Shown here: piece by piece, positions 3,409-29,000 of the stretch
Numbering within the stretch: the first letter of the stretch is position 1
How the letters are laid out: every line of letters starts with the position of its first letter
Position numbers and translations under genes: made by a program
Notes under the pieces: model-generated
What the model was told of the DNA's origin: nothing
Databases searched by the model: none
What the model saw: the letters and a program-made list of their open reading frames with translations, nothing else
Origin: Chitinophagales bacterium
GTDB lineage: Bacteria; Bacteroidota; Bacteroidia; Chitinophagales; BACL12
Assembly (NCBI GenBank): GCA_014380545.1
Contig: JACMJP010000274.1
Span: 1 to 37,476, forward strand
Length of the DNA stretch: 37,476 nucleotides
Direction of reading: 5' to 3'

Positions 3409-4404
3409 ATGTATCGTATAGCAATAAATGGTTTTGGACGCATTGGCAGGGTGTTTATGCGTCGTATCCTCGAAAAAGAAAATATTGAAGTTGTTGCCAT
3501 TAATGATCTTGCAGATGTAGCAACGCTTGCACATTTATTCAAATATGATTCAATACACAGAAAATTTCCGGGTTCAGTTTATGTAGAAGGAAATAATTTA
3601 GTGATAAATGAAAAACGAATACAGGTATATGCTGAAAAAAATCCGGAACAATTGCCATGGAGGAATTTGAATATTGATCTTGTGCTGGAATCAACAGGAT
3701 TATTTTTAGATTCAGCACATGCCCAAATGCATATAAAAGCAGGGGCAAAAAAAGTTTTATTATCAGCGCCTCCTAAGGATCAGGAAATCAAAACAATTGT
3801 TTTAGGTGTAAATGATTACTTATTATCAAAAGAGGATGCAATAGTTTCTAATGCAAGCTGCACCACAAATTGCGCTGCACCGATGATAAAAATTTTGCAT
3901 GAAAATTTTGAAATTGAGCAGGCTTACATTACAACTGTGCATGCATATACATCAGATCAGAAATTACATGATGCACCACATAAAGATTTGCGCAGGGCAA
4001 GAGCGGCTGCTTTAAATATTGTTCCAACTTCAACGGGTGCAGCAAAGGCCATTACACTAACATTTCCTGAACTTGAAGGAAAAATTGGCGGTGCCGGAAT
4101 TCGTGTACCTGTTTCTGACGGATCTATTACAGATATCACCTGTACAATTAAAAGAAATACTACAATTGAGGAAATAAATAAAAAATTTAAAGAGGCTTCT
4201 GAAAATAATTTGAAAGGGATTTTAAGTTATTCAGATGAGCCGCTTGTAAGTATGGATATTGTTGGGGACCCTCATTCCTGCATTTTTGATTCAGAATTAA
4301 CTTCCGTAATTGGAAATATGGTAAAAATTGTTGGATGGTATGATAATGAATACGGATATTCCAGCAGGCTTGCAGATTTGATTGAAAAAATATCTTTGAT
4401 GTAA
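3409..4404 (+). CDS. gap: Type I glyceraldehyde-3-phosphate dehydrogenase
   Basis: 331 aa. MYRIAINGFGRIGRVFMRR Rossmann start, catalytic SNASCTTNCAAP, C-terminal WYDNEYGYSSRLADL. Confidence 0.97.
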   Translation: MYRIAINGFGRIGRVFMRRILEKENIEVVAINDLADVATLAHLFKYDSIHRKFPGSVYVEGNNLVINEKRIQVYAEKNPEQLPWRNLNIDLVLESTGLFLDSAHAQMHIKAGAKKVLLSAPPKDQEIKTIVLGVNDYLLSKEDAIVSNASCTTNCAAPMIKILHENFEIEQAYITTVHAYTSDQKLHDAPHKDLRRARAAALNIVPTSTGAAKAITLTFPELEGKIGGAGIRVPVSDGSITDITCTIKRNTTIEEINKKFKEASENNLKGILSYSDEPLVSMDIVGDPHSCIFDSELTSVIGNMVKIVGWYDNEYGYSSRLADLIEKISLM

Positions 4405-4425
4405 AATCTAAATAACGAAATAAAT

Positions 4426-5622
4426 ATGAGAACCGTAAACGATTCTAATTTCGCAAATAAGAAAGCATTAATAAGAGTTGATTTTAATGTTCCGCTTGAT
4501 AAACAAACTTTTGCAGCAACAGATGATACAAGATTAAGAGCTGCACTAAAAACAATTAATAAAATAATTGCTGATGGAGGTTCTGTTATTTTAATGAGTC
4601 ATCTCGGCAGACCGAAGGGGGGACCTGAAGACAAATATTCTTTAAAACATATCGTTGAACATTTATCCGGCTTATTAAATAAACCGGTGAAGTTTATAAA
4701 TGATTGTATAGGAGATGATGTGAAAGATGCTGCAGAAAATTTAAAACCGGGTGAAATTTTATTATTGGAGAATCTGCGTTTTCATCCTGAAGAAGAAAAA
4801 GGAGATGAAAAATTTGCAGAGCAGTTAAGTAAATTGGGAGATGTATATGTGAATGATGCCTTTGGTACAGCACACCGTTCGCATGCAAGTACAGCTGTTA
4901 TTGCAAAATATTTTTCCACTGAAAATAAAATGTTTGGTTATTTAATGGCTGCTGAGATAGAAGCAGGAAATAAAATTTTAAATAACCATCAGAAACCATT
5001 TACTGCAATTATTGGCGGGGCAAAAGTTTCTGATAAAATATTAATACTTGAAAAATTAATTGATAAAGCAGATAACATAGTTGTTGGGGGTGGAATGGCT
5101 TATACATTTATTAAAGCTACGGGAGGAAAAATTGGAAATTCATTATGTGAGGAAGACAGGTTAGAATTAGCAAAACAATTATTGGAGAAAGCAAAAAATA
5201 AAAATGTAAATTTCTTATTGCCTTATGATTCTGTTATTGCTGATAAGTTTGATAATGATGCTATGAAAGCAAATTGTATGAGCCATGAAATAGAAGATGG
5301 CTGGATGGGATTGGATATAGGAAACAAGGCAATAAATGACTTCATTGAAGTAATTAAAAATTCAAAAATAATTTTGTGGAACGGACCGATGGGTGTATTT
5401 GAAATGGAAAATTTTAAAAACGGTACCGTTGAAGTTGCTAAAGCAATTGCTGAAGCAACACAAAATGGAGCATATTCGTTAGTTGGTGGTGGTGATAGTG
5501 TTGCTGCAGTAAACAAATTTGATCTTGCCGATAAAGTAAGTTATGTATCAACAGGTGGTGGCGCTATGTTAGAGTTTTTTGAAGGGAAAATTCTTCCCGG
5601 TATTGCCGCAATTGAGGAGTGA
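4426..5622 (+). CDS. pgk: Phosphoglycerate kinase
   Basis: 398 aa. [59 protein letters not shown]; directly downstream of gap. Confidence 0.97.
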
Positions 5623-5702: not shown

Positions 5703-6905
5703 TTACATATCAGTTTCTTTCGCATCTTCACCACCTTCAGTTTTTAGTGATGCAAAATCAAATGCAAGTGTAAAGCGCAAAGTATTATCTAAAGGATTTT
5801 GCTGGTTGCCTGATGGAATTAAATAAGAGAAATCTAAACCGAAGACATTGTATTTTAATCCAAGACCAACTGTAAAGAATTTCCTGTTGCCTTTTTCAGC
5901 GGCTTCATAAAAATATCCTGTGCGCACTGCAAATTGATCGCTATACCAATATTCTATACCTGCTGCAATAACTATTTCTTTTATTTCCTCGCTGAATCCT
6001 CTTGGCGCATCACCAAATGAACTAAATATTCCTGATACTACACCTTGTTCTTTGTAGTCAAATATTGTGTTTCCGTTTGCATCTGTTGAGTCAGGAGTCG
6101 GTACTAATAATTTATTAAAATCAAGTGCAATTGCAATTTCATTATGTTCATCAAAATTGATTCCGTACGTGACACCAAGTCCAAGATTGGTTGGAATAAA
6201 ATCTTTTTCAATTGAATTAGTATAAGTGATCTTATTTCCGATGTTTGAGATATTTACTCCTGCATTTAAATAAGAGTCTTTATCACCCTTATTAAATTCT
6301 GTAGTATAAAATAAAGAAACATCTGCTGCAACACCGTTAGCAGGTTTAATAGGAATACCATTTACATATTGGCCTGTTGCAAGGTTTGAGTAAATATATT
6401 TAAGGTTCAAACCTGCAGATAATTTATCAGCTAATTTTCTTGCATATGCAACATCAAAAGCAAATTCATTGGGGCGGAAATCCTGTAATATATTTCCTGA
6501 GGCATCTGTGAATGTGATACTTCCCAGCGAAAAATATCGTAATGATGCGCCTAATGTTGAGAGATCATCCACTTTCCAGAAGCCTGTTAAATATGCTAAG
6601 TAAATATCGTTTACAAGGTTTCTGAGCCAGGGAGTATAAGTAATACTTAATCCTGAATTATCTTCAACGAAAGCTAATTTGGATGCATTCCAGAAAATGG
6701 AATTTGCGTCCGGAGAGATTGCGATACCCACATCCGCCATTCCTCCTGATCTTGCATCAGGAGCTATGCGCAAAAATGGAACTGCAGTGCTCACAGTATT
6801 TAAATAGTCGTCGCCTGTTGCCCCGATTGTTATTTGTGCATTAGAATTTTTTCCAACACATAGTGCTAAAACAATTGCAACTGTAAGTTTTGTTATAGAT
6901 TTCAT
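5703..6905 (-). CDS. porV: Type IX secretion system outer membrane protein PorV (LptO)
   Basis: Translation MKSITKLTVAIVLALCVGKNSNAQITIGATGDDYLNTVSTAVPFLRIAPDARSGGMADVGIAISPDANSIFWNASKLAF is PorV-like. Start taken at Met7 of the listed ORF because the upstream -7 element overlaps the longer start; adjacent to porU. Confidence 0.93.
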   Translation of the reverse strand: MKSITKLTVAIVLALCVGKNSNAQITIGATGDDYLNTVSTAVPFLRIAPDARSGGMADVGIAISPDANSIFWNASKLAFVEDNSGLSITYTPWLRNLVNDIYLAYLTGFWKVDDLSTLGASLRYFSLGSITFTDASGNILQDFRPNEFAFDVAYARKLADKLSAGLNLKYIYSNLATGQYVNGIPIKPANGVAADVSLFYTTEFNKGDKDSYLNAGVNISNIGNKITYTNSIEKDFIPTNLGLGVTYGINFDEHNEIAIALDFNKLLVPTPDSTDANGNTIFDYKEQGVVSGIFSSFGDAPRGFSEEIKEIVIAAGIEYWYSDQFAVRTGYFYEAAEKGNRKFFTVGLGLKYNVFGLDFSYLIPSGNQQNPLDNTLRFTLAFDFASLKTEGGEDAKETDM

Positions 6906-6920
6906 ATTCTGAATTGATTG

Positions 6921-6928
6921 CAAATTTA
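6921..6928 (-). promoter_or_regulatory. Predicted porV promoter (-7 TAAATTTG, with TTG about 18 nt upstream)
   Basis: Reverse complement reads TTG-N18-TAAATTTG, about 16 nt upstream of the ATG at 6905. Confidence 0.55.
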
Positions 6929-7058: not shown

Positions 7059-10000
7059 TCACCTAAGGATGACAAGTTTTTGGAATTCGTTTGCTTTTGA
7101 GCGATCAGAATTTGCGATAACGGTTAATTTATAAACATAAACACCTCTTCCGATCTGGTCTCCGTAGTTATCCAAACCATCCCAGGCTATATCGCTTACT
7201 CTATAGCCATCCGTCTGCACCTGTTGCTGAATTGTTTTTATTAGTTTACCGGATACTGTAAATACTTCCACTTTAACATCCAGAATATCGCCCGGTCTGT
7301 TATGTTCAAACCAGAATGATGTATTTGTTGTGAATGGATTTGGATAATTGAGCACATGGTCTAATGCAAGCTTTGCTGATTCAGCTACAACAAATTCAGT
7401 ATAACCTTCCCCTGAATTATTATATACATCCCATGCCTTTACTCTAATTGAATGCCTTCCGGCAGCAATATCTCTCAAAGGATATTTTACTGTGCCTTTC
7501 TGATAATTATCTAATTCAGCTTCATAATATTCATTCAGCTCAGCTTCTGATTGTTGGTTTTCATCTAAGGTTGAAGTTATGTCATGCCCAATACCATTTC
7601 CAACTGTATTCATACCATTCGAATCTTCAAGCACTACATACAGAAACGGATCCTCATCCGTTAATCCGCCAAATACAAAACTTTCATCATTCATATAAAC
7701 ATCCACTGCTGGTCCATCATTATCAGTAGCAATTGAATCTGCTGTTCCGCCGACAAAAACATTTTTTTCATAACCTCCCGCATCTTCAGTTTCATTATTA
7801 GCGTAATAACTTAATTTTCCATTTCCGAAATCATAAGAAATATCTTTTGGCACCACAAAGGAGTATTCAAATGCGCCACTGTCAACACTTGCTTTTCCTT
7901 TATAAATTGCATTTTTTTGTAATTTAAATGTATAAAAATAACTTCCGGGATCATTTACAAGCGTTGTAACATTAATTGGTTTATCATACACAGTTGGATA
8001 AACTGTTCCATTAAATCCTGTTAGTTGAATTCCGCTTTGGTCAGTAATAATTCCTTTAATGGTAACTTTCTCTAATGCTTTTAATGTATCTGCACTAACA
8101 ATCGGGATACCGTTTACTTCAGTTGTTTTCACATTGTATTTAGGATAATTTAATTGAATGCCCGGATCACCGAATAAAAAGAATTTTCTTGTATTTACTG
8201 GTTGCGAAACCACAGCATTTTTCCCCATCATAAAAGCAGTTCCTAAAGTGGGCATTATTCCGTCTATCGGTGCAAATGCATTTTCATTGAAATTAGAATT
8301 CAATTCATAGTTTGCATTTGAATATACAATTCTTACTGTTGAAACTAAACCAACACCACCTCCCTGCGGATTTAATAAAATTAACTCACCTGCACTTGTT
8401 CTTTCCGGATTATCAAAACGGGAAAAAGAACATGTTGCTGTAATAAATAAGGGAAGCTTATCATAATTTGTCCAGCTATTAATATCATCAACACTTAAAA
8501 TTCTTTCCTGTGCCCAGTTTTGTTCGTTACCATGACCGGCCCAATTAATAATTAATGCTCCGGTGAATATCTGATTATTAATTCCAATATTCACATCAGG
8601 ATATCTTTCACCTCCTGCACCGGGCACCTGCTGATATGCATCAAGATATAATTTATTCAAATTATATTGCGGGTAGGTCGTATCAAAAAAAGTTGCAATA
8701 TCATCTGCATCATCTATATGTGTATTGCCATCTTCATCGTCTGCAATAAAACAAATTGTGTTTCGCCAGTTGCCAAAAGTTTCCGTTGATTTGTAATGCA
8801 TGATCTTATTAATAATATCAGTTGCTTCGCTAATTTCACGAACAGGGAATCTTCCTATACCGATATCCAATTTATTAATATCATTGCTCATGTCAGCTCC
8901 TTCAGAGGAATCTAAACAACCGAAATAATCATCAGTTGGATATGTTTGTGTTTGTATGTTCGATTCATAACTTTCATAAGTAGGAACATAATTAGAATTT
9001 AATTCTTCACTGAAAAGAATATTTTTATAATCGAATGATGCATCACCAAGTAACAATAAATATTTTGGCATTATAGATTCATCACCAGCAGCACGGTCGT
9101 AAAACATACGCATCATATTTCTTATAGCCGTAATATCCTGTGTGCCGGAGGAAAATTCATTATATACCTGGTCAATTGTTGCAACAAGCGTATCATAATT
9201 ATGTGTATCATAGTGCCATGCTGCAAGCCTCCTTGCTTCTGAAATAAAATCAGGATGAGAAATAATAATATATTCAGGTGTATTAGAAACATCATGCAGG
9301 TTTTGGTTTGCAACAGCACCTGCAAAAGTTATTTCTGATGATGGAAAAGCGTCAGCAGCTGAAAATGCAATGAATTGTTTTAATGTATCAGATGGAAGAG
9401 TAAAATTTCTTGTTGAGGAAAAATCATAATCCTGATTTAAAACATTATTTTCATTTGTAATATCCCAAATAAAAATATCGCCTGATCCGCTTATTTTATA
9501 TTCTGTGTAATTTCCTGTGCCAACTCCGCGGCTATCCCTAAAAATTAATTGTGCATTATTATAATTCAAATTTGCCCGGCTTATTAATTCAATGTAATCC
9601 ACCCATCCGAGATCACTTCCTGAAGCATCAAATGTTACAGTTAAATTTATATCACCTGATGCCGGAGGTTCAAATTCATGTTTTAATAAAGTTGTCTTTG
9701 CATAATCGCTTTCTGTAGTTACTGGCGTAACTGCAAATTCATAATTTGTATCTGCTCCACTTCCGGTAATAGAAATTTTCGGTGTATTTGTGCTGCTCTT
9801 TGCCGCAAGATAAGCCTGCAATACAGCATTTTCATCTGTGTTTATTGAAGGAATTGTTGTAGAGTAAATTCTTGGTTCAGTATAAGCATCCATTGGTGTG
9901 TCAAACCATCTTCTTCCTGAATTTACCAGGTTTATTTTATCATTATCCCATACAAATAGATGATCATAATCGGTAGTTGAATAAGTAGCTGTGCCCAAAC

Positions 10001-10916
10001 TAATTTGGGTTAAAAGATTTTTATCTGTTCCCATGTCTGTTGTAATAAAATAATAGGCAACATCACTATATAAATGTTTTTGATGCGCATAACTTTCATC
10101 AGCAACATTAAATTTCCAATTGTCAGCACCATTTGCATAAAATAAAATATAATCGCCATCATCAAAACTTCCATCTTCTAACCCGGAACGATAAATATTA
10201 TTTTCAACCAGGTCGTCATAATTTGCAAGATCATTTGCTTCAGGCAACATGCCACCGGTACCGAAAATACCAAATGTTTCAGCGTTAAATGATTCCGTAT
10301 TTATTCCCAGCTCAGTTAAAAATGATTTATCAATTTTATATACGCCCTCTTTTGTAGTTCCTATTTTATACCATGTTCCGATTTCTAAAACTGAAGAGGC
10401 AGCATATGTATGTTCATCATCACCTCTGAAAGAATTGGCATTTGCATCGGGCTGAATATTTATTTGCAAGGTAAAGCTTATTAATTTTTCATACTTGCCT
10501 GTAAAAGAATTTTTCCTGATTGGAATAAAACTAACAACGACATAATTTTTGGTTCTTGATTTTGTGAAGTAATAACTTGTATTTATTTCACCGCTTATTT
10601 TTTTCCCTTTTATCAGATCCTGCCTTTTTATTGGTTCATAAACGGGATTTATAATTTCTATTGATGCAATTCCCCTGCTTTCAATTTCAAAACTTTCGGC
10701 CCAAACAGGTACTGATGGTGAAGATTCATAATCGAAAGAAGCTCCTTTAAAATAAACGGCTTCATGATTTACAGAACCATCTGAGAAATAATAATAGGTA
10801 GAATCATTCCATTCCAAAGAACGATTTACAATAATCTGATCATTTGCATATACAGAACTTGCAGCGAAAAGCGTTAAAATTGCAATCTGAATTTGTAAAT
10901 AAAGTTTAGGTATCAT
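7059..10916 (-). CDS. porU: Type IX secretion system sortase PorU (C25 gingipain-like peptidase)
   Basis: About 1285 aa. Catalytic-type motifs INWAGHGNEQNW and FITATCSFSRFDNPERTSAGE, C-terminal YPNPF...FTVSGKLIKT...GRGVYVYKL. Start MIPKLYLQIQIAILTLFAASSVYA preferred (signal peptide); the ORF track extends to 10985. Confidence 0.93.
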   Translation of the reverse strand: MIPKLYLQIQIAILTLFAASSVYANDQIIVNRSLEWNDSTYYYFSDGSVNHEAVYFKGASFDYESSPSVPVWAESFEIESRGIASIEIINPVYEPIKRQDLIKGKKISGEINTSYYFTKSRTKNYVVVSFIPIRKNSFTGKYEKLISFTLQINIQPDANANSFRGDDEHTYAASSVLEIGTWYKIGTTKEGVYKIDKSFLTELGINTESFNAETFGIFGTGGMLPEANDLANYDDLVENNIYRSGLEDGSFDDGDYILFYANGADNWKFNVADESYAHQKHLYSDVAYYFITTDMGTDKNLLTQISLGTATYSTTDYDHLFVWDNDKINLVNSGRRWFDTPMDAYTEPRIYSTTIPSINTDENAVLQAYLAAKSSTNTPKISITGSGADTNYEFAVTPVTTESDYAKTTLLKHEFEPPASGDINLTVTFDASGSDLGWVDYIELISRANLNYNNAQLIFRDSRGVGTGNYTEYKISGSGDIFIWDITNENNVLNQDYDFSSTRNFTLPSDTLKQFIAFSAADAFPSSEITFAGAVANQNLHDVSNTPEYIIISHPDFISEARRLAAWHYDTHNYDTLVATIDQVYNEFSSGTQDITAIRNMMRMFYDRAAGDESIMPKYLLLLGDASFDYKNILFSEELNSNYVPTYESYESNIQTQTYPTDDYFGCLDSSEGADMSNDINKLDIGIGRFPVREISEATDIINKIMHYKSTETFGNWRNTICFIADDEDGNTHIDDADDIATFFDTTYPQYNLNKLYLDAYQQVPGAGGERYPDVNIGINNQIFTGALIINWAGHGNEQNWAQERILSVDDINSWTNYDKLPLFITATCSFSRFDNPERTSAGELILLNPQGGGVGLVSTVRIVYSNANYELNSNFNENAFAPIDGIMPTLGTAFMMGKNAVVSQPVNTRKFFLFGDPGIQLNYPKYNVKTTEVNGIPIVSADTLKALEKVTIKGIITDQSGIQLTGFNGTVYPTVYDKPINVTTLVNDPGSYFYTFKLQKNAIYKGKASVDSGAFEYSFVVPKDISYDFGNGKLSYYANNETEDAGGYEKNVFVGGTADSIATDNDGPAVDVYMNDESFVFGGLTDEDPFLYVVLEDSNGMNTVGNGIGHDITSTLDENQQSEAELNEYYEAELDNYQKGTVKYPLRDIAAGRHSIRVKAWDVYNNSGEGYTEFVVAESAKLALDHVLNYPNPFTTNTSFWFEHNRPGDILDVKVEVFTVSGKLIKTIQQQVQTDGYRVSDIAWDGLDNYGDQIGRGVYVYKLTVIANSDRSKANEFQKLVILR

Positions 10917-10931
10917 GAATTCACTATCTGA

Positions 10932-12023
10932 ATGAACAAAGTTCGAGAAAAAATAACGCAAAGACAACGAAAGAGGTTTGCACATATTGCCCGATATTTT
11001 CGTGCTGTTATTTTTTTTGACAAAAAAATACAGTACTTATTTTTCGTACTGTTTTTAATTTGCTGTAAAAGCATTTTTTCTCAGGATCTGCGCTTCACTC
11101 AATTTCATGCATCGGATACCTGGCTTAATCCTGCTTTTGCAGGAAACAAAGGACAGCCAAGACTTGAAATAAATTTCCGGGATCAATGGCCGGCTATACC
11201 ACAAACATATGTGAGTTATCGAATTGCCTTTGATGCTGCAATAGAGGACCTGAATAGTGGGATAGGGCTATTTATTGTGCGGGATGATGAAGGGCAAAGT
11301 ATTTTAAAAACACAACAATTCGGTGCGCAGTACATGTACCAGGTGCAATTAACGAAACAAATGGCTCTGAATACTGCTGTTCAGGCAAGTTACACACAGC
11401 GAAGCATTGACTGGAATGAATTGCAGTTTTATGATCAGATAAATCCAATATATGGGTTTACTGATGCTACAGGAAATCCAAATCCAATAAGTCAAACTCC
11501 ACCATCTCAATTTGAAATACATTACTCAGATTTTGCAGCAGGGGCATTACTTTTTACAAATAAATGGTATGCCGGCATCTCAGCATCTCACCTCACTCAA
11601 CCCGATCAAAGTTTTTATACCGGGAACGAAAGCAAATTACCACTTACTGTGACTGTACAAAGCGGACTTCAGTTTTACGACGATCAAAAGCTTTATCCCT
11701 TTGTAGTAAACCCTTTAGCGCTTTTTACATTGCAAAAAGACTATAAGCAAATGATGGCAGGCAGTTACTTTAAAAAAGGAAATTTGTTAGCCGGAGCTTT
11801 CACCAAATATAATTTTCAGCATCTAACCGACGTTAGTGCTCTGATTGGATTAAGAAAAGGATGGATGACATTTGCTTATAGCTATGATGTTCCTTTAGGG
11901 GCATTAAGCGGAGCAAGTGGTGGGGCACATGAAGTTTCAATTGTAGTTTTATTTATGGAAAGCAGTAGTAAAATGACGACAAAAAGACAAAAGCGTTCAT
12001 TAGAGTGCCCGTCAATATTGTAA
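10932..12023 (+). CDS. Type IX secretion system membrane protein of the PorP/SprF family
   Basis: CCKSIFSQDLRFTQFHASDTWLNPAFAGNKGQPRLEINFRDQWPAIPQTYVSYRIAFDAAIEDLNSGIGLFIVRDDEGQS is the canonical PorP/SprF N-terminal pattern. The true start may lie downstream, for example GTG near 11001. Confidence 0.9.
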   Translation: MNKVREKITQRQRKRFAHIARYFRAVIFFDKKIQYLFFVLFLICCKSIFSQDLRFTQFHASDTWLNPAFAGNKGQPRLEINFRDQWPAIPQTYVSYRIAFDAAIEDLNSGIGLFIVRDDEGQSILKTQQFGAQYMYQVQLTKQMALNTAVQASYTQRSIDWNELQFYDQINPIYGFTDATGNPNPISQTPPSQFEIHYSDFAAGALLFTNKWYAGISASHLTQPDQSFYTGNESKLPLTVTVQSGLQFYDDQKLYPFVVNPLALFTLQKDYKQMMAGSYFKKGNLLAGAFTKYNFQHLTDVSALIGLRKGWMTFAYSYDVPLGALSGASGGAHEVSIVVLFMESSSKMTTKRQKRSLECPSIL

Positions 12024-12078: not shown

Positions 12079-13596
12079 ATGAAAAGAATCCTGCTCTCAG
12101 CAACCATTTTATTTTTTGTAGGAAGTATTATTTCTTCCTGCGCCAAGCGTTCATCAACTACTGGTTTCAAATATAACGATCCTAAATACGGCGGATTTGA
12201 AGCACATAATTTTGAGGGGCAGCCTACAGGGCCAAATTTAGTTTTGGTTGAGGGCGGAACTTATACAATGGGAACAACTGAACAGGATGTTACTTTTGAA
12301 TTTCACAATGTACCCCGCCGAGTAACAGTTTCATCTATGTACATGGATGAAACGGAGGTATCCAACCTCCATTATCGTGAATATTTATACTGGCTTACAA
12401 GAGCATTTTATGCAGATTTTCCTGATGTGGTAAAAAGAGCTTATCCCGATACATTGGTTTGGAGAGATGAATTGGCGTACAATGAACCATATGTAGAGTA
12501 TTACTTCCGTTATCCAAGTTATGATAATTATCCTGTGGTTGGAATTTCATGGTTGCAGGCTACTGAATATGCAAGGTGGAGAACAGACAGGGTAAATGAA
12601 AATATTTTAAATGATAAGGGAATAGTTGATGTAAATATCAACTCATTAAATGAAGATAATTTTAATACTGAATCATATCTCTATGGTCAATATACAACAG
12701 GTGTTCAGAAAGGATTGAAAGATTACAGTCCTGAGGCAGGTGATTCAAAGGAAGGAAGGCAGGTGAAAATGGAAGATGGTGTCTTATTACCTGATTATCG
12801 TCTGCCAACAGAAGCTGAGTGGGAATATGCAGCACTTGGTTTAATTGGTAACCAGGTTGAAAATAATGAAATGCTTACCGACAGAAGATTATATCCCTGG
12901 GATGGAAATACACTTAGAGAGCCATCCAGCAAAGAAAGATGGGCGCAGGGCGGTATGCTTGCAAACTATAAGAGAGGCAGAGGTGATTATGCAGGTCTTG
13001 CCGGAAAATTAAATGATAATTCAATAGTAACTGCTCCAATTTATTCTTACATGCCGAATGATTACGGTTTATTTAACATGGCAGGTAATGTAAATGAATG
13101 GGTAATGGATGTTTATCGTCCGCTTACATATTATGATATGGATGATCTAAATCCATTCAGAGGTAATGAATTTGAAGTTAGAGAATTGGATGAAGAAGGA
13201 CTTGTTGCTGAAAAAGATAGCGTCGGAAGAATTAAATATCGTCCTCAAAAAGATGAAGAAGTGGTGAACAGAAGAAATTATAAAAAAGGCGATGAAAAAA
13301 ATTATGTAGATGGAGATTCAATTTCATTAGCATATTACGATTATGCAAAAACAACATTAATCAGCGATAAATCAAGAGTTTATAAAGGAGGATCATGGAC
13401 TGATGAAGCATTTTGGTTATCACCGGGTGCAAGAAGATATTTGGAAGAAGATCAATCAACAGCTACATTAGGTTTCCGTTGTTGTATGATTCGCCTTGGA
13501 GGTGATGTAGATAATTTCACTAAAGGTGGAAATCAATTCAAAAAAACTGAAAAGCAGGCTAAGGTCAATAAAAAGATGCGCAAGCAATCAAACTAA
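12079..13596 (+). CDS. gldJ: Gliding motility lipoprotein GldJ (SUMF1/FGE-sulfatase domain)
   Basis: 505 aa lipoprotein (IISSCAKRSST). LVLVEGGTYTMGTTEQDVTFEFHNVPRRVTVSSMYMDETEVSN, RLPTEAEWEYAALG, GNVNEWVMDVYRP, YKGGSW, GFRCCM. Conserved neighbourhood with porU and murF. Confidence 0.93.
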   Translation: MKRILLSATILFFVGSIISSCAKRSSTTGFKYNDPKYGGFEAHNFEGQPTGPNLVLVEGGTYTMGTTEQDVTFEFHNVPRRVTVSSMYMDETEVSNLHYREYLYWLTRAFYADFPDVVKRAYPDTLVWRDELAYNEPYVEYYFRYPSYDNYPVVGISWLQATEYARWRTDRVNENILNDKGIVDVNINSLNEDNFNTESYLYGQYTTGVQKGLKDYSPEAGDSKEGRQVKMEDGVLLPDYRLPTEAEWEYAALGLIGNQVENNEMLTDRRLYPWDGNTLREPSSKERWAQGGMLANYKRGRGDYAGLAGKLNDNSIVTAPIYSYMPNDYGLFNMAGNVNEWVMDVYRPLTYYDMDDLNPFRGNEFEVRELDEEGLVAEKDSVGRIKYRPQKDEEVVNRRNYKKGDEKNYVDGDSISLAYYDYAKTTLISDKSRVYKGGSWTDEAFWLSPGARRYLEEDQSTATLGFRCCMIRLGGDVDNFTKGGNQFKKTEKQAKVNKKMRKQSN

Positions 13597-13675: not shown

Positions 13676-14950
13676 ATGCGAGCAAAAGAACTATTTCAAC
13701 TATTTCAAAAATCTACAGGCGTTACAATTGATTCAAGAAGTGTTCAGCCGGGAAATATTTTTTTTGCATTAATGGGTGAGCATGCCAATGGAAATGCCTA
13801 TGCTGAGATAGCAATTGAAAAAGGAGCATTATGTGCAGTAATTGATGATGTGAATTATAATATAAATGAGAATTTTTTTTTAGTAGATGACAGCTTAACA
13901 GCATTACAACAACTTGCAAAAACATATCGTGATACATTAGTAATTCCATTTATTGCAATAACAGGATCAAATGGAAAAACAACAACCAAAGAATTAATGC
14001 AGGCTGTATTAAATAAGAAATACAACGCATTCGCAACAAAAGGTAATTTGAATAATCATATAGGCGTACCGCTAAGTATTTTATCTGTTATGAGGCAACA
14101 TACTATTGCAATTATTGAAATGGGAGCCAATCACCAAAAAGAAATTGAATTTTTGTGTTCTCTTTCAAACCCAACACATGCGCTAATAACAAATATTGGC
14201 AAAGCACATTTAGAGGGATTCGGCGGTCCGGAAGGTGTAAAAAATGGGAAGTCAGAATTATATTATTACATCATGCAAAATAATGGGATTGTGTTTGCAA
14301 ACAGCGGTCAGGAACAATTATTTGATGTATATGCAAAATATGATAAGGTAATTACATACGGGTTTAAGGAAAATGATTTTGTTAATGGAAAAATAATATC
14401 CAGCTTACCATTTGCAACAATTAAAATAGATGATTTTATCATTGAATCAAATTTAGTAGGACAATACAATGCCGAAAATATTTTAGCTGCGGCTTGTGCA
14501 GGCAAGTATTTTGGGATTGATCTGCAGGAAATAAAAGATGCAATTGAAACTTATATTCCAAGAAATAACCGCAGCGAATGGAAAGAAATAAACGACAACC
14601 ATTTTATTTTAGATGCATATAATGCAAACCCAAGCAGCATGAAAGTAGCAATAGAAAATTTTATGCGCTTGGATGTTTCACCTAAGATTGTAATTCTTGG
14701 TGATATGCTCGAGATGGGAAAATATGCAGCGGAAGAACATACACATATTTTAGATACGGCTTTATCAGGAAATTTTAATGCGATAATAACTGTAGGAAAT
14801 GAATTTGAAAAAGCTGCAGCAGGAAAAAATATAAAAGCATTTAAAACAAATGCTGCAGCAAAAGAATATTTTAATTCACAAAATTATAAGGGGGTTTATA
14901 TTTTGTTGAAAGGCTCAAGGGGAATTGCACTGGAGAAAATTATTGAGTAG
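13676..14950 (+). CDS. murF: UDP-N-acetylmuramoyl-tripeptide--D-alanyl-D-alanine ligase
   Basis: 424 aa. VTIDSRSVQPGNIFFAL, ITGSNGKTTTKELMQAVL, AIIEMGANHQKEIEFLC, ILDAYNANPSSMK, ILGDMLEMG. Confidence 0.96.
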   Translation: MRAKELFQLFQKSTGVTIDSRSVQPGNIFFALMGEHANGNAYAEIAIEKGALCAVIDDVNYNINENFFLVDDSLTALQQLAKTYRDTLVIPFIAITGSNGKTTTKELMQAVLNKKYNAFATKGNLNNHIGVPLSILSVMRQHTIAIIEMGANHQKEIEFLCSLSNPTHALITNIGKAHLEGFGGPEGVKNGKSELYYYIMQNNGIVFANSGQEQLFDVYAKYDKVITYGFKENDFVNGKIISSLPFATIKIDDFIIESNLVGQYNAENILAAACAGKYFGIDLQEIKDAIETYIPRNNRSEWKEINDNHFILDAYNANPSSMKVAIENFMRLDVSPKIVILGDMLEMGKYAAEEHTHILDTALSGNFNAIITVGNEFEKAAAGKNIKAFKTNAAAKEYFNSQNYKGVYILLKGSRGIALEKIIE

Positions 14951-14988: not shown

Positions 14989-16152
14989 CTAATGACTCAG
15001 CTTCATAAAAACTTTCATCCATTTATCAGGTAAAATATTATTTGTGGCATCCAAATAATCTTCATAAGCACATGGCACTAATTGCTGCCGCTCAAATTTT
15101 TTATGCACTATGAATGGAACTTCAACCCACCATCTTCCGCTTTTGTTGCTTTTCCAAAAAGTGAGATCATATCCGTTTCCATGTAGGTTAACTATATATT
15201 TTGTAAAATTCCTTTCATCTGTTATCGGGTAATCCTGCTTGCGTTTATAATATCCGTCAATAAAGTACCAGATCATTTGCGCAATGAGCTGTGCAGTTAA
15301 TTCCTGTGTATCAAACATAGGGTTATATTCATAAATACCAACAGAACTCACTTTATCACTCATGCCTGCATAGCGCATTATCTGACATGCCTCTTCACTT
15401 GTTAGTCCATTTGGAGTTGCATGCGCATGACCGGGTGCATCGCATGCTTTAATTGCACTCATATCAAAACTTACAATATCAGCATCACGAATTTCAGGTT
15501 CCATGTAGCGATAACTTTCTTTTATTTTTCCAAGCCGGCATATATCAAAGAACATTGTATCAATGGTATTCAGCATTTCCTGCGCAAGAAAATGTCCCTG
15601 GGCACCTATGGCAGTATAATTAAATAAATAATTTTTTTCATGCGAAAAAATATCCATCAGCCAATTACATGCTGCCGGGTATCTATGCTTTTCCCGCAGA
15701 TCAATTTGTTCATCAATAACAGCAAGATTAACTGCCTGCCCTAAAAATTCATATCCATTATATTGCCCGATAGTTATATCCTGGCTTCCACCGATAATTA
15801 TTGGAATTATTCTTTGCTGTAAAAAATATTCCATCGCCATCTTCAAATTATCATAGGTTTCTTCAGGAGATTCACCTATAATTATATCACCGGCATCAAT
15901 CATTTTAATTGGCAGGTCAGCTGCTGATAAATTATAAAAATGTTTACGGATAATGTCGGCGCCGTTTGCACTGCCACTGTTATTATAACTTGCCCGGCTT
16001 TCATTCACTGCTATCAGCGCAATATTAATATCTGATGTATCAGGAACTTCATGCAAATTGACAGCGATGCGCTGACCTATCTTGTAGCCTGAAAAATTTT
16101 CTTCTTCAAAATAATTCCCCATACGGGCAGGAGTGAGCAGCCTATTTATCAT
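14989..16152 (-). CDS. Arginase-fold (formimidoylglutamase-like) family protein
   Basis: 387 aa. Arginase-like layout with IIIGGSQDITIGQYNGYEF, LAVIDEQIDLRE and VSFDMSAIKACDAPGHAHATPNGLTSEEACQIMRYAG, but with altered metal-ligand positions (see findings). Confidence 0.85.
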   Translation of the reverse strand: MINRLLTPARMGNYFEEENFSGYKIGQRIAVNLHEVPDTSDINIALIAVNESRASYNNSGSANGADIIRKHFYNLSAADLPIKMIDAGDIIIGESPEETYDNLKMAMEYFLQQRIIPIIIGGSQDITIGQYNGYEFLGQAVNLAVIDEQIDLREKHRYPAACNWLMDIFSHEKNYLFNYTAIGAQGHFLAQEMLNTIDTMFFDICRLGKIKESYRYMEPEIRDADIVSFDMSAIKACDAPGHAHATPNGLTSEEACQIMRYAGMSDKVSSVGIYEYNPMFDTQELTAQLIAQMIWYFIDGYYKRKQDYPITDERNFTKYIVNLHGNGYDLTFWKSNKSGRWWVEVPFIVHKKFERQQLVPCAYEDYLDATNNILPDKWMKVFMKLSH

Positions 16153-16316: not shown

Positions 16317-17441
16317 ATGTTATTATATTTTTTTGACAGGGTCTTTTTAGATAATACATATCGTCAATATGCCTGGCTGTTTGGTATATTATTATTTGTA
16401 ATTATTTTCAAAAGATATATTTCCAAACTCATAAGTTTACTTCTGTTCCGCCTGGCAGGTAAAACCTACGCAGGAAAAATGACGGAAGAATTCCTTTCGC
16501 TTATATTAAAACCGCTCCAGTATTTAATTATTCTCAATACCATTTATTTTGGTTTCAGTTCGCTTGCATTTCCGGAAATATGGAAAGTTGAATTTGGAGG
16601 GATACAATTACAAAATTTCATCATCGGCATATATACATTTTTTCTTATACTTTGTGTTGCATTTCTGTTTTCAAGGCTTGCAGAATTTATAACAAGAGTA
16701 TTAAAATCAAAAGCTGCATTAACTGAGGATCCATGGGATGATCAGCTTGTTGCATTTTTTAGAGATGTATTAAAAGTATTCATTTGGTTTATTGCAATAT
16801 TTTCTATCCTGTCAATTGTATTTCATGTAAACCTTGCTTCACTTCTGGCAGGCGCCGGTATCGCAGGTATTGCATTAGCATTTGCAGCACAGGAAAGTTT
16901 ACAGAATATTTTCGGCAGCATCGCTATATTTTCAGAGAAGCCATTTGTAGTGGGCGATCTTGTTGAAGTAGATGGTGTAACGGGCAAAGTTGTGAAGGTC
17001 GGTTTCCGCAGCACAAGAATACGCTCCGTAGATACAAGTTATATGACCATACCGAATAAAAATATTGTAAATAATAAACTAAGTAATTTAAAAAGAAGAA
17101 CTTCAAGACGCATTCAGTTTAATCTTGGGCTTAACTATGATACAACTAAAGAACAGTTGGAAAAAATAATTTCCGAAATAAAAAAATATGCTAATGAACA
17201 TCCCAAAAAAAATGATGAAGTAAATGTTGGATTATATAATTTCGGAACGTATGCAATTGAAATTATGGTTGAAATACATCTGGAGTACGAAGCATGGGAT
17301 AAATACATTGAAACAAGAAATGAGGTATTATTCTCTATTCTAGGTATTGTAAAAAATAATAAAGCGGTAATTGCTTATCCTACTCAGATTTTGAAAATTG
17401 AAAATGAGAAGTTTTTATTTGGTGGTGAAAAGATTCAATAG
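16317..17441 (+). CDS. Mechanosensitive ion channel family protein (MscS-like)
   Basis: 374 aa. Several TM segments, then LASLLAGAGIAGIALAFAAQESLQNIFGSIAIFSEKPFVVGDLVEVDGVTGKVVKVGFRSTRIRSVDTSYMTIPNKNIVNN (MscS pore helix and beta domain). Confidence 0.96.
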   Translation: MLLYFFDRVFLDNTYRQYAWLFGILLFVIIFKRYISKLISLLLFRLAGKTYAGKMTEEFLSLILKPLQYLIILNTIYFGFSSLAFPEIWKVEFGGIQLQNFIIGIYTFFLILCVAFLFSRLAEFITRVLKSKAALTEDPWDDQLVAFFRDVLKVFIWFIAIFSILSIVFHVNLASLLAGAGIAGIALAFAAQESLQNIFGSIAIFSEKPFVVGDLVEVDGVTGKVVKVGFRSTRIRSVDTSYMTIPNKNIVNNKLSNLKRRTSRRIQFNLGLNYDTTKEQLEKIISEIKKYANEHPKKNDEVNVGLYNFGTYAIEIMVEIHLEYEAWDKYIETRNEVLFSILGIVKNNKAVIAYPTQILKIENEKFLFGGEKIQ

Positions 17442-19338: not shown

Positions 19339-20640
<1,302 letters not shown>

Positions 20641-20905: not shown

Positions 20906-23900
20906 ATGAAGAAAGTGTATCTATTCTTTACCCTCCTCTATTCCACACTATTTTGTTTTAAAATTTCCTTTGCGCACGGTGACGATTGCGATGTACATTC
21001 TGATAATCCTGTTTTGCAGGCAGAACATTGCGCCGTCATGGAATTAGTGCATGAAGAAGACGCAACACATATTGCGATTAACAGCGGCTCATGGTTCACA
21101 GCATCTACATGGGATGCAATGGAAATTCCACCTTCCGGCGCACGGGTTTTAATTGACAGTGGAGTTGTAGTTACTTACGATCAGGAAAGTACTACTTCTA
21201 TTTTCTGGATCAGAGTAAATGGAACCTTACAATTTGCAACAAATGTAAATACCAAACTCAGAGTAAATACAATAGTTGTTGATGCTGCCGGCACAATGAC
21301 AGTTGGTACTTCTGCTATACCCATTGCATCAAATAACACCGCAAAAATTATTTTTTCTGATGAAGGCGCTATTGATACAGACTGGGATCCATTTTTATTC
21401 AGCAAAGGATTAATTAGCCATGGTGCTTTCAATGTTTATGGAGCATCAAAATTATCTTATGCATCTATGAACACAGATCATACTGCTGGAAAAACGTTTT
21501 TAAAATTATTGGAAACACCAACCGCATGGAGTGTTGGTGATAAATTAGTTTTGGCAGGAACAAATTCATCATGGCTTGGTATCAGTGGAGATAATTCCCG
21601 TTATCATGATGAGGAATTAACCATCACATCCATCTCAGGAAAAAATGTATATTTTACAAATGATGGTGATGGAAGTAATGCTTTAAAATATACGCATAAA
21701 GCACCCACGGGATATGGATTAAAATTTCATGTTGCAAATCTTTCCCGCAACGTAATTTTTGAAACAGAAAACTGGGAGTCACTTCCTTTTTCAGAAAGAG
21801 GGCATGTAATGCTCATGCATAATCCAAATCAAAATGTTTATTATGCTTCTTTTATTGGTTTAGGAAGAACCGATAAATTAAACTTTGCTACAGACCCGGC
21901 TGTGGATGCATTAGGTAATTATTTAAGCGGAGAAGAGAATGTAAGGGGAAGGTATCCATTACATATTCACAGAGCAGGAACAAATAGTACTACAATTGAT
22001 CCGGTTAATCTGAAAGGAAACGTTGTATATACTACACCGGGTTGGGGAATTGTAAATCACTCCAGTAATGTTGTTGCAGAAGAAAATATTGTTTATGAAT
22101 TTTCAGGTGCTGCATTTGTTACTGAAGCAGGAGATGAAATCGGTTCCTTTATTAAAAATCTTGCTTTAAAAGGTGTTGGAAATGAATCGCTGCCAAATGA
22201 CTCACCGGTATTTTCAAGAATTTTGCGTTCGCAAAATTTTGATCTTGGCTATGAAGGTGATGGTTATTGGATGCACAGTAATAATTTGGAATTAGAAGGT
22301 AATATTGCTGCATCATGCAAAGGAAAAGGGTTTCATTATTTTGCTGATGATGATGATATTGCTGCTTCAAAAAAATTAAAGGTACCTGTTTCAACAATTA
22401 TGAGTCCTGTTATTGCAGGAAGTGATGATTCTGTTTCAGCAGCAATTATTCCAATAAGAAAAAACAATAATTCTGTTGTTTATAATTCTGTTGAGGCAAT
22501 GGCATTCTGGACCTTTATGTATAATGAGGATAACATAGGTGGTTTTTCGCATTCCGAAGACCAGCCTTATGCGCACAATATACTTAGTGTAATTGATAAC
22601 TTTAAATTTTGGAATTTGTTAAACAAGGGTGTTGATTTAACATATTCCGGACAAATCCATTTCAGAAACGGATTGATGTTAGGAGATCTCGAGAATCATT
22701 TTGATGACGATGACTGGATAACAGATAATGAAGATGATGGTATTGCAGTTACATCAAGTATTGTTACGGGTCAGGTTGTTATGGAAAATGTAACAATGAA
22801 AGGATGGAGAAAGGCCGCAGTAGTATTCAGAACAGATAATTCAGAAGGAACTGATGATTTGGAAGCTAATTACCGCACATCAAAAATAATTGGTGGTGTA
22901 TATGAAAACAATTATTACAATATGTATCCTGAAAAAGGAATAAGTACTTTCGGATCAAATACCTTTCAGTTTCCGAAATATTTTGAAATATCAGGTAGCC
23001 CGGTATTTAGTTCAATAACATCTAATACAGCACCTGTTGCAAATTTTTCTTATGCATCAGCAGGCGGAAAAACCGTTCAGTTTAATGGTGGATTATCATC
23101 AGATGCTGATCAGTATGTATCAACAAGCGGAAACGGAATTGCTGCATATACATGGGATTTCGGAGATGGAACTACTGGAAAAGGTGTAGACCCTGTTCAT
23201 TATTATTCTGCAGGAGGAACATATAGCGTTAACCTTACAGCTTATGACTGCCAGGGTGCAACAAATACTTTTACGAAAAGTCTTGTAGTGCATAATGAAA
23301 AATACCCGAACACTATTAAAGATTCAGGATTTGAATTATACCCTTTAGTTCAAAAAACAAATATCACAAGTACAAGAGATTTTGTTGGAATTGGATGGAT
23401 GGAAAATGGCGATTGGTTATTGCAGGATGATAAAGCTACTATCATTAATAGTATAGTTCCAAATAAACCGCTTATGCAGGTAAATAAAAATGACCGTGCA
23501 CTGCAGGAAGAAGTTGAATTTTCTTTCCAGGTAAAAAATGTTGGAACAGGTGCAATAGGAAATACATTGCAGGTAGAGGTAATTGGTATTAATGGTGAAT
23601 TTGTTAATACGAATATTGATATGTTTGGCAACTTTGAAAAATGGCCGCATAATGATATGACATTTGAACAGGATGTCTTATTAAGCGAAGAGTTTGGTAT
23701 GAGTAATTATGACTGGACAACGTTTAAAAGAACTGTTGACTTTGGAACAGGGTATGATTATATTGCTGTTTCATTTTATTCTTATGGTGTAAAAAATGTG
23801 TGGGGAGATATGCAGGGAGTTGATAATGTTTGTTTACCATGCGATTGTTCAACACCATTAGATAACTTTGAAACTCAACTTACATCCACTCATGTTAATT

Positions 23901-24667
23901 TAATTTGGGAAAATGTAGGTAGTGAAGAATATCAAATGGAAATTAAACAACAGGGTGGATCATGGACAGATTATACAGTAGAAAATACATCAATGGAATT
24001 TTCTGATCTGATTCCTAACAAAACATATAACTGGAGGGTGAAGGCATTTTGTGATGGAGCGTATACAAACTATTCTGAAATAAGAAAGTTTATAACGCCA
24101 GTTACTGGTGGCGCATGCACAACACCTACACTCACAGAAGTTTCCTTAATAACAAGCACTACAGCAACACTTAGCTGGAACCAGGTTCCCAGTGTTTTAC
24201 AATATCAGGTTCAGTACAAAAAAACAGGGACAACTACCTGGACGAGTGTTTATACAACAAATGCTTTCCTTGCAGTTACCGGTCTTTCACCAAGCACATC
24301 CTATCAATGGAAAGTGCGCAGTCAGTGTACTGAAGGATGGAAACAGTTTACAAATAATAACTCTTTTGCAACACCTTATCTTAAAGAGGGAGAAATTTCT
24401 GCAGATGAAATGGATTTAGATATTTATCTCTATCCAAACCCTGCCAGTGATGTTGTAAATGTTTCTGTTAATTCAAATATAAATGAAACAGTAACAGTGC
24501 AGTTAATTGATCTTACAGGAAGAACTGTACTTGAAGAAAGTATTTCTTTACTATACGGAGCCAGTGAGTTTTCGATAGACGTTCATGCTATCGCCCGGGG
24601 CGCATACATTTTGGAAATAAGCAGTACAAGCGGATTTTCTGAAACAACTAAGCTTATGATTGAATAA
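20906..24667 (+). CDS. Large secreted G8-domain protein with parallel beta-helix (CEMIP/TMEM2-like), PKD and FN3 domains and a T9SS type A sorting domain
   Basis: 1253 aa. Signal peptide; G8-like GSWFTASTWDAMEIPPSGARVLIDSGVVVTYDQES; HIHRAGTN...NVVYTTPGWGIVNHSSNVVAEENIVYEFSGAAFVTEAGDE; PKD AYTWDFGDGTTGKGVDPVHYYSAGGTYSVNLTAYD; two FN3-like repeats; C-terminal LYPNPASDVVNVSV...LIDLTGRTVLEESIS...GAYILEISS. Confidence 0.87.
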   Translation: MKKVYLFFTLLYSTLFCFKISFAHGDDCDVHSDNPVLQAEHCAVMELVHEEDATHIAINSGSWFTASTWDAMEIPPSGARVLIDSGVVVTYDQESTTSIFWIRVNGTLQFATNVNTKLRVNTIVVDAAGTMTVGTSAIPIASNNTAKIIFSDEGAIDTDWDPFLFSKGLISHGAFNVYGASKLSYASMNTDHTAGKTFLKLLETPTAWSVGDKLVLAGTNSSWLGISGDNSRYHDEELTITSISGKNVYFTNDGDGSNALKYTHKAPTGYGLKFHVANLSRNVIFETENWESLPFSERGHVMLMHNPNQNVYYASFIGLGRTDKLNFATDPAVDALGNYLSGEENVRGRYPLHIHRAGTNSTTIDPVNLKGNVVYTTPGWGIVNHSSNVVAEENIVYEFSGAAFVTEAGDEIGSFIKNLALKGVGNESLPNDSPVFSRILRSQNFDLGYEGDGYWMHSNNLELEGNIAASCKGKGFHYFADDDDIAASKKLKVPVSTIMSPVIAGSDDSVSAAIIPIRKNNNSVVYNSVEAMAFWTFMYNEDNIGGFSHSEDQPYAHNILSVIDNFKFWNLLNKGVDLTYSGQIHFRNGLMLGDLENHFDDDDWITDNEDDGIAVTSSIVTGQVVMENVTMKGWRKAAVVFRTDNSEGTDDLEANYRTSKIIGGVYENNYYNMYPEKGISTFGSNTFQFPKYFEISGSPVFSSITSNTAPVANFSYASAGGKTVQFNGGLSSDADQYVSTSGNGIAAYTWDFGDGTTGKGVDPVHYYSAGGTYSVNLTAYDCQGATNTFTKSLVVHNEKYPNTIKDSGFELYPLVQKTNITSTRDFVGIGWMENGDWLLQDDKATIINSIVPNKPLMQVNKNDRALQEEVEFSFQVKNVGTGAIGNTLQVEVIGINGEFVNTNIDMFGNFEKWPHNDMTFEQDVLLSEEFGMSNYDWTTFKRTVDFGTGYDYIAVSFYSYGVKNVWGDMQGVDNVCLPCDCSTPLDNFETQLTSTHVNLIWENVGSEEYQMEIKQQGGSWTDYTVENTSMEFSDLIPNKTYNWRVKAFCDGAYTNYSEIRKFITPVTGGACTTPTLTEVSLITSTTATLSWNQVPSVLQYQVQYKKTGTTTWTSVYTTNAFLAVTGLSPSTSYQWKVRSQCTEGWKQFTNNNSFATPYLKEGEISADEMDLDIYLYPNPASDVVNVSVNSNINETVTVQLIDLTGRTVLEESISLLYGASEFSIDVHAIARGAYILEISSTSGFSETTKLMIE

Positions 24668-26022: not shown

Positions 26023-29000
26023 ATGATCGCATATAACAGGATCAATAATATAACAGGATGGGTAGTATTTTTCATTGCTCTCATTTCTTATACAATGACG
26101 ATGGAAGCATCCGCAAGCTGGTGGGACTGCGGGGAATTTATTGCAGCAGCATATAAATTGCAGGTTGTTCATCCGCCGGGTGCACCAATTTTTTTAATGA
26201 TGGGGAAAATTTTCACCCTGTTTGCATCATCACCCGAGCAGGTTTCAGTTATGATGAATTTCTTTTCTGCTTTGTCAACTGCATTTGCCGTGCTCTTTTG
26301 TTTTTGGATTGCTACAAGACTTGCAAAAAAATTATTAATAGGTGATGGCGAAATAACAAAAGCAAATACTGCAGCAGTTATGTTCACTGGAATAGTTGCA
26401 GGTTTAACCTGTGCTTATATGGATAGTTGGTGGTTCAGTGCTGTGGAAGCCGAGGTTTATGCACTTGCAACATTCTTTTTTGCAATGACTTTTTGGGCAA
26501 TGATAAAATGGGAAGAGAAAGCTGATACTCCTGAAGGTGACAGATGGATATTATTTATATTCCTTATGATAGGATTGAGCATGGGAGTGCATTTATTAAG
26601 CTTACTTACAATTCCGGCAATGGGATTAATTTATTATTTCCGCAATTATAAATATTCCGCAAAAGGATTTTGGGCAGCAATGGGAATAAGCTTTGTAATT
26701 CTCGGAATTATTCTTTTTGGTGTAATTGATAAATTTATTGCAATAGCAGCATGGTTCGACAGGACATTTGTAAATGGTTTTAGCCTGCCGTTTAACAGCG
26801 GAACATTTTTCTTCTGTGTGTTATTAGTTGGCGGAACAATTTATTTAGTGCGTTACGCTGCTCTAAGGGGAAAGCGGGTTATTTATATAGCCTCTATGAG
26901 TTTCCTTATGTTAATTATTGGGTGGAGTTCCAATGCAATGGTACTAATACGGGCGAAAGCAGAACCTGTAATTAATATGAATGGAATTAATGATGTGCAT
27001 AGTTTTCTTTCTTATTTGCGCCGTGAACAATACGGTTCAAGAGACCTTGGGTATGGGCCGTACTGGACAGCAAGACCTCTTGATATTGAATATACCGGTG
27101 ATAAATGGGGTAAAATACCCGGAGGTGAAGAGTATGTTTCTGTAGGAAAAGATTTTAAAATTATTTACGACTTGCCGGATGATCAATTACGGGCAGCGGG
27201 ACTAACTCCCGCTCAAATTGATCTTATGAAAAAGAGGAATAAACAAACTTTATTTCCAAGAATGGGATCTCTCGAGTCGAGACATGCCAGTTTATATTAC
27301 AATTTTGTTGGAGTACCTGAAGGTCAGGAATCAACTTATGTTCCGGATGGTTTGGATAATTTTCAATTCTTCCGTGAGTACCAGATCGGGTATATGTTCT
27401 GGCGGTATTTTATGTGGAATTTTTCAGGAAGACAAAATGATTCGCAGGGTTATTTCCATGATGGAATGAAGGATGGTAACTGGATAACCGGTATTGAAGC
27501 CCTGGATAAAACAAAAAACGAACATCTGCAAAATCTTCCGCCAAGCATGAAAGATGTAATGAGCCGCAATACATTTTTCATGATACCATTTATTCTTGGT
27601 TTACTCGGAATGGTCATTCACTTGCGAAAAGACTGGAAGGGCTTTCTTATTTTATTTATGTTTTTCTTTTTTATGGGGTTTATGAATCTTTTTAATTCAA
27701 ATGAACCCCCTATAGAACCACGGGAAAGGGATTACGCATTAGTGGGTGCTTTTTTTGTTTACGCAATTTGGGTTGGGTTTGGAGTGCTTGCATTATTTGA
27801 TATTGCAAAAAAGAAAGACACAAAAACAATTACTGAATACTTATTATATGCCGGAATTATTATGGTAATAATGTTTTTAATAGGATTAACCGTATATGAC
27901 TTTGGTAGCTTCATTGCGTATTTAATTTATGCTGCAGCAATAATTGGCATTTTATCTTTTATTGTAATTGCTGCAGGCAGGGCCTTAAAAAGTGATTATG
28001 CAGTGGCTGTATTAATAGGATTGCTTTGTTTATCTGCCCCTGTATTAATGGCGCAACAGGGATGGGATGATCATAACCGGCATAACAGAACAATGGCAAG
28101 AGATTTTGCAAGAAATTATTTAGAAAGCTGTCCGCCCAATGCTATTTTATTTACACAGGGAGATAATGATACATATCCTTTATGGTATGCACAGGAAGTA
28201 GAAGGAATAAGAACAGATGTGCGTATTATTAATTTAAGTTTATTAGGAGTGGATTGGTATATCAATCAATTACGGCATGCGGCAAATGATGCAGGGAATA
28301 TTGATCTTTTATTAGGCTATGAAAAAATATTAGGTGATAAAAGAAATTCAATTCGATTTGATACTAAAAGTAAATTTCAAAATCGTGTGGTCGATTTAAA
28401 AGAAGCAGTTTTATTTATGGGGAATGATAATCCTGAAGCGATGAGTCAAAGCACGGGAGAAAATTATATTCCTTCTCTAAAATTTAAAGTAGCCGTTGAT
28501 TCAGCAACTGCGGCACAAAATAACTTAGTGCCTGATAATTTGAAAGGAAATATTGTTTCAGAAATGCCATTTGACTTAAAAAATAAATCATTGTTAAAAA
28601 ATGATTTGATGGTGCTTGATATTGTGGCAAGTAATATTTCAAAACGCCCGATTTGTTTTGCTATTACGGTTTCGCCTGATGCATATCTCGGTCTGGAAAA
28701 ATATTTTATGCAGCGAAGCATGGTTTGGCAAATAGCACCTGTTATGATAAATGGAAACGGGTTTAATCGTGCAATAAATCAGGAGGTGATGTTTGATCAG
28801 CTTGTAACCAATAATATATTTACATACGGTGGTATAGAAACCGGAGAAAAGCTAAACCTTGAATCATCTTCTCTTGGAAGTGCTATGACTGCAAAATATG
28901 TAAACTACCAGGCGCTTGCAGGTGATTACATGGAAGAAGCATTAAATGCAGAGGCACAGGCGAAACAAATGCTTGCACAGGATTCATCCAATACCGAATT

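Follow-up and report, generated by a model that had tools for sequence, protein, structure and literature searches.

A putative arginase-fold pseudoenzyme, near-universal in Bacteroidia and often encoded near type IX secretion genes

Does a gene that resembles a ureohydrolase, but in which metal-binding residues are altered, still encode an enzyme, and what else might its product do? The question is raised by a reverse-strand gene of a Chitinophagales bacterium (GenBank assembly GCA_014380545.1), located on contig JACMJP010000274.1, whose 37,476 nucleotides constitute the window analyzed here. The gene is termed argX, a label used here and not an established name. The original prediction, placed at 15430-15797, described an arginase-fold protein lacking the canonical histidine metal ligands; that range spans the motifs, but the gene itself is larger, with 1164 bp (Table 1). 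The motifs on which the claim was based are present in the translation: IGGSQDI at residues 120-126 (window 15775-15795), VIDEQID at residues 145-151 (window 15700-15720), and the third, SFDMSAIKACDAPG, at the position given in Table 1. Alignment with relatives that keep all the ligands confirmed that both ligand histidines are replaced by glutamine (H>Q124 and H>Q149), and that the third motif is altered (D>S232, with D230 retained).

Table 1. Position of argX, its motifs and its neighbours in the window
Feature	Position	Strand	Remarks
porV, T9SS outer-membrane protein	5703..6923	-	profile match
porU, T9SS sortase	7059..10985	-	1288 bits vs cut-off 420
porP/sprF family T9SS membrane protein	10932..12023	+	profile match
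gldJ, T9SS/gliding lipoprotein	12079..13596	+	GldJ_short above cut-off
murF, convergent neighbour of argX	13676..14950	+	profile match
argX, putative arginase-fold pseudoenzyme gene	14989..16152	-	ORF of 387 aa, 1164 bp, ATG start, intact
C-terminal extension past the arginase domain, residues about 305-387	14992..15240	-	contains SGRWW motif
YEYN, residues 274-277	15322..15333	-	E275 aligns with the substrate-guanidinium Glu of arginases
motif 3, SFDMSAIKACDAPG, residues 228-241	15430..15471	-	D230 retained; S232 in place of the site-B Asp
motif 2, DEQID, residues 147-151	15700..15714	-	Q149 in place of the site-B His; D147 and D151 retained
motif 1, GGSQD, residues 121-125	15778..15792	-	Q124 in place of the site-A His
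mscS-type channel, divergent neighbour of argX	16317..17441	+	kept in same-family genomes

The arginase fold, which had been thought to be retained, is retained by several measures. ArgX scored 82.7 bits against the PF00491 (Arginase) profile, for which the superfamily cut-off is 22, and an AlphaFold2 model built from an alignment of 47 relatives had a pLDDT of 89.1 and a pTM of 0.92. The top Foldseek match in the PDB was Trypanosoma cruzi formiminoglutamase (4mxr; E 3e-17), with a TM score of 0.81 by target length and an rmsd of 2.4 over about 290 residues. Metformin hydrolase and Bacillus subtilis HutG (3m1r) were also matched, and all 50 of the top 50 matches were arginase-family proteins, as expected for the three-layer alpha-beta-alpha fold. 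Among the NCBIfam models the best was hutG, although its 91.6 bits are far below the TIGR01227 equivalog cut-off of 229.15; argX also scored far below the cut-offs of the agmatinase and arginase equivalog models.

In arginase, site A is formed by H101, D124, D128 and D232, and site B by H126, D124, D232 and D234. The argX equivalents, judged by alignment and not by the geometry of the model, are Q124, D147, D151 and D230 for site A, and Q149, D147, D230 and S232 for site B. Hence, three of the six ligands of catalytic ureohydrolases (two His and four Asp) are retained, and three are replaced (His124>Gln, His149>Gln and Asp232>Ser). The same positions were counted in 159 aligned, non-redundant core family members. 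Position 124 is Q in 120 members, H in 29, N in 9 and A in one; D147 is found in 158 members, D151 in 147 (N in 9) and D230 in 156. H149, by contrast, is found in 8 members and D232 in none, and no member carries the full ligand set. E275 is present in 129, with N, G, Q and others elsewhere. The outgroup comprised five relatives from other parts of the phylum and two paralogues from the window genome; all seven have the site-B pair, and five have the first His. Since no core member has the full set and D232 is absent from all 159, the ligand loss is more than chance; and since the site-B-only positions are gone, the site-A positions are conserved and the outgroup keeps the site-B pair, the loss is selective for site B.

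The altered motifs reported for a single protein are thus a trait of the family. Decay in one genome or a sequencing error was ruled out by the intact ORF and by the family-wide ligand losses. We also looked in the family alignment for other histidines that might supply a normal binuclear site, and none is invariant: the commonest (H171, H288 and H356) are each present in 71-72 of 81 sequences, and the window protein has Gln at two of these positions, so no replacement ligands were seen. With both site-B-only ligands absent throughout the family and no invariant His as a substitute, the binuclear metal site of argX, judged from the aligned residues, cannot form in the usual way. Among the options first put forward (a non-canonical metal site, a different activity or a regulatory pseudoenzyme), these alignments favour the pseudoenzyme, with a residual mononuclear site A as a possibility.

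A GTDB genome similarity scan gave 392 relatives, from which 80 were kept, all of them Bacteroidota records. When 393 genomes from across the phylum were searched with a profile, full-length members were found inside the class of the window (Bacteroidia) only. Within the class, argX is present in 279 of 296 evenly sampled members (281 matched, two of them weakly only). The family was split from the outgroup in the tree with an SH-aLRT of 96, and the tree broadly tracks taxonomy, which suggests vertical descent; the long branches, namely f3 (f-codes denote taxonomic family-level groups in the sample) and the paralogue L004, are uncertain. Four unsaturated pairs of argX genes gave dN/dS values of 0.04-0.09. 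Between the window gene and its same-family relatives synonymous sites were saturated (pS 0.77-0.88, with pN 0.25-0.27), so no dN/dS is given for the window pair itself. ArgX is under strong purifying selection, and it combines a kept fold, lost catalytic ligands and purifying selection, as in a pseudoenzyme family.

The portion under selection can be approached from lineages in which decay went further. Two f3 members from the order of the window (L115 and L116; 277-278 aa) align from about profile position 200 onwards only. They have no recognisable N-terminal half and have lost both first motifs, and retain PSGLYSED and SGRWWVKIP; their locus is murF-gldJ-porP-porU, as in the window. The f5 members have lost nearly all ligands. 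W341, W342 and C361 of the C-terminal extension are invariant (A1), and the extension is retained even where the N-terminal half is lost. This decay series argues that the C-terminal half and the extension, and not the catalytic site, would be the selected part.

An automated annotation of formimidoylglutamase had been anticipated for this gene, and such a label is plausible given that hutG, albeit below its cut-off, is the best NCBIfam model. In one flavobacterium genome a formiminoglutamase was the sole histidine-degradation enzyme reported (PMC11278836); this orphan, taken from the annotation in that paper, fits as a candidate for misannotation of the argX family. In all five argX genomes inspected (L204-L207 and L210) an intact HutG-type gene (GGGHD, DAHxD) adjoins the hut genes, and argX is at a separate locus. 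Of 80 argX genomes, 71 have urocanase and nine lack it, so the readings are told apart by gene position and not by the mere occurrence of hut genes. The window genome carries, on other contigs, three further PF00491 genes whose motifs are intact, namely an arginase (above cut-off), an agmatinase-like gene and the HutG-like L004 (GGGHN/DPHAD). Two urocanase matches were also noted on separate contigs of this genome (L208 and L209, on G000:C257 and G000:C188), which possibly reflect a second hut locus or an assembly of mixed origin.

The neighbours of argX include genes of the type IX secretion system (T9SS). The class-wide nature of the trait, this neighbourhood and the conserved C-terminal extension had all been missed in the original prediction. 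Being convergent with murF and divergent from mscS, argX is not co-transcribed with the T9SS genes in the window, and an operon with gldJ/murF was ruled out by the strands. Genes for GAPDH, phosphoglycerate kinase and enolase flank the T9SS genes (window 3409-5622 and 19357-20640). Further along, window 20906-24667 encodes a 1253-aa protein that combines G8, CEMIP beta-helix, PKD and fn3 domains with a C-terminal signal for T9SS sorting and is probably a cargo of this system, and window 26023-29433 encodes a 1136-aa TMEM260-like protein O-mannosyltransferase.

Two distinct T9SS loci contain argX: topA-argX-(porP)-gldKLM, and the window type, argX|murF-gldJ-porP|porU. A co-directional topA lies upstream of argX in 99 loci, with a median gap of 42 bp. 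The gldK gene (or a gldJ-like one) is no more than 3.5 kb downstream of argX in 64 loci, and porP follows in 40. These counts include overlapping loci, and many loci were chosen by similarity to the window protein. The gldL and gldM genes come next wherever such loci extend far enough. ArgX is beside murF-gldJ in the window, in four further same-family genomes and in several other families, with porP and porU beyond in most. Many argX loci, including those of f4 and of much of the order of the window, have neither arrangement, and argX is accompanied by topA more consistently than by gldK.

The presence of argX was then compared with that of GldL in the 296 class genomes: 277 have both, 12 GldL only (f11, f13 and others), two argX only (G347 and G490, with no GldL match) and five neither. 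Fisher's test gave p 7e-6, but this is not a clean test, because the sampled genomes are related and kinship is uncorrected. Strict dependence of argX on the T9SS is not supported by these counts. GldL served as the T9SS marker because PorU was scored on two candidates per genome only, which makes its absence in f4 and some f6 genomes unreliable; GldL was found in nearly all f4 and f6 genomes lacking a PorU match. Several f4 genomes (G002, G080, G099, G122 and others) have GldL and no PorU above cut-off among the two candidates scored; either PorU was missed by the limited scoring, or these cells have a motor without the known sortase. The link between argX and the T9SS is a genomic association and is suggestive. 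ArgX was not found in the T9SS literature searched, and no paper tying an arginase-family protein to the T9SS or gliding was found in that search, which covered few subscription papers.

Several other explanations have to be weighed against a pseudoenzyme with a T9SS partner. That argX is a true formimidoylglutamase acting in histidine breakdown, its site changed yet functional, is hardly credible: the closest NCBIfam model, the closest folds (formiminoglutamases) and the frequent company of urocanase would fit, but both site-B ligands are absent, nine argX genomes lack urocanase and the window genome has a HutG-like gene of its own. HutG as the identity of argX was ruled out by the score (91.6 vs 229 bits) and by the intact HutG-type genes in the hut loci of the same genomes, and this reading is largely refuted. 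ArgX might instead be a non-catalytic subunit that pairs with an intact ureohydrolase of the same cell, as MetCb does with MetCa, a direct precedent in the superfamily (PMC11271267). Three intact-motif paralogues exist in the window genome; metCa and metCb, however, lie side by side, whereas in the window argX has no PF00491 gene next to it, and the intact HutG genes are in separate hut loci, so we regard such a pairing as improbable. A single hard metal ion (Mn, Mg or Ca) held at site A, serving another reaction or metal sensing, would account for the joint conservation of four site-A positions (Q/H/N124, D147, D151 and D230) in nearly all 159 members while the site-B-only pair drifts, and for E275, a substrate contact in arginases, in 129 of them. 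In T. cruzi formiminoglutamase the first His is naturally Asn, and Mn2 structures nonetheless exist (4mxr, and 4myn for the N114H variant). Yet the protein is kept in f3 and f5 clades without most site-A ligands, E275 is lost in Flavobacterium-type members and the conserved Asp residues could serve folding; a mononuclear metalloprotein thus seems unlikely.

The proximity to T9SS genes could also be inherited gene order, with argX acting as a housekeeping regulator unrelated to secretion (linked, for example, to topA or to amino-acid status). Its commonest neighbour is indeed topA, and nearly all of the class has argX, including f4, in which PorU did not exceed the cut-off. On the other hand, the order of the window has a second, different T9SS locus without topA, GldL is present in 10 of 11 f4 genomes, and genomes without GldL are mostly without argX. 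We consider this alternative rather doubtful.

The explanation that we place just on the probable side of even is that argX is a pseudoenzyme of arginase fold that has taken on a binding or regulatory role in the cytosol, and that its partner most likely belongs to the T9SS; a T9SS-related role as such is about evenly balanced. ArgX would descend from a formiminoglutamase-like (HutG-type) ureohydrolase, and an ancestor in the class would have lost the site-B-only ligands and with them the usual binuclear Mn centre. Without that centre argX is very probably not a ureohydrolase; the ligand loss is seen in the residues themselves, and the loss of activity is what we infer from it. The fold, the site-A residues and the C-terminal extension would then have been kept under strong purifying selection. 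A reading of the N-terminus, with no evident signal peptide, points to a cytosolic protein. Its old pocket may bind either a ligand or no more than one metal, and its C-terminal half may contact a protein partner. Because argX neighbours two different T9SS loci, that partner would most likely be in type IX secretion or its assembly, e.g., at the cytosolic side of the GldL motor. A bolder version, which we think quite unlikely, makes argX a nearly class-wide T9SS/gliding component: a site-A-only former ureohydrolase that binds one ion or a guanidino-type ligand, and thereby controls either the GldLM motor or how the GldK/GldJ complexes are assembled.

A strongly conserved, near-class-wide gene thus looks like a histidine-degradation enzyme and is likely to carry that label, almost certainly wrongly, and pathway reconstructions in the class can therefore err at the formiminoglutamase step. 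If the T9SS link is true, argX would be an undescribed cytosolic factor of the secretion/gliding machine. The selective dismantling of a single metal site out of two, after which some lineages also lost the whole catalytic half, would be an unusually clear natural series from enzyme to non-enzyme.

Compared with known systems, argX shares its fold with HutG (T. cruzi 4mxr and B. subtilis 3m1r), and with the T. cruzi enzyme also the SFD...SxDxPG motif context and the absence of the first His (Asn114 in T. cruzi). Unlike HutG, it has lost the site-B His and Asp, lies outside the hut operon and carries an extension at its C-terminus in which WW and Cys are invariant. The T9SS core (GldK/L/M/N, GldJ, PorU, PorV and PorP) has neighbourhoods and, largely, genomes in common with argX, but argX has no evident signal peptide, appears cytosolic and is absent from some T9SS genomes. 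A T. brucei arginase-like protein is described in a citing review as missing key residues (PMC10820115); it resembles argX in having an arginase fold without the binuclear Mn cluster, and differs in being eukaryotic, of another lineage and without linkage to a secretion system. The metal-free metformin hydrolase subunit (MetCb, MfmB or MefH-beta) is likewise an arginase-family pseudoenzyme: five of its six ligand positions are altered, it contains no metal, and its active partner depends on it (PMC11271267). Its gene adjoins that of the partner and belongs to the metformin pathway, whereas argX is found almost throughout its class, has kept the site-A positions and lacks an active paralogue next to it. 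Arginase pseudoenzymes, including ones that act by binding, are therefore already known as a kind; what appears to be new is one that has selectively lost half of its metal site throughout a class and is encoded beside a secretion system.
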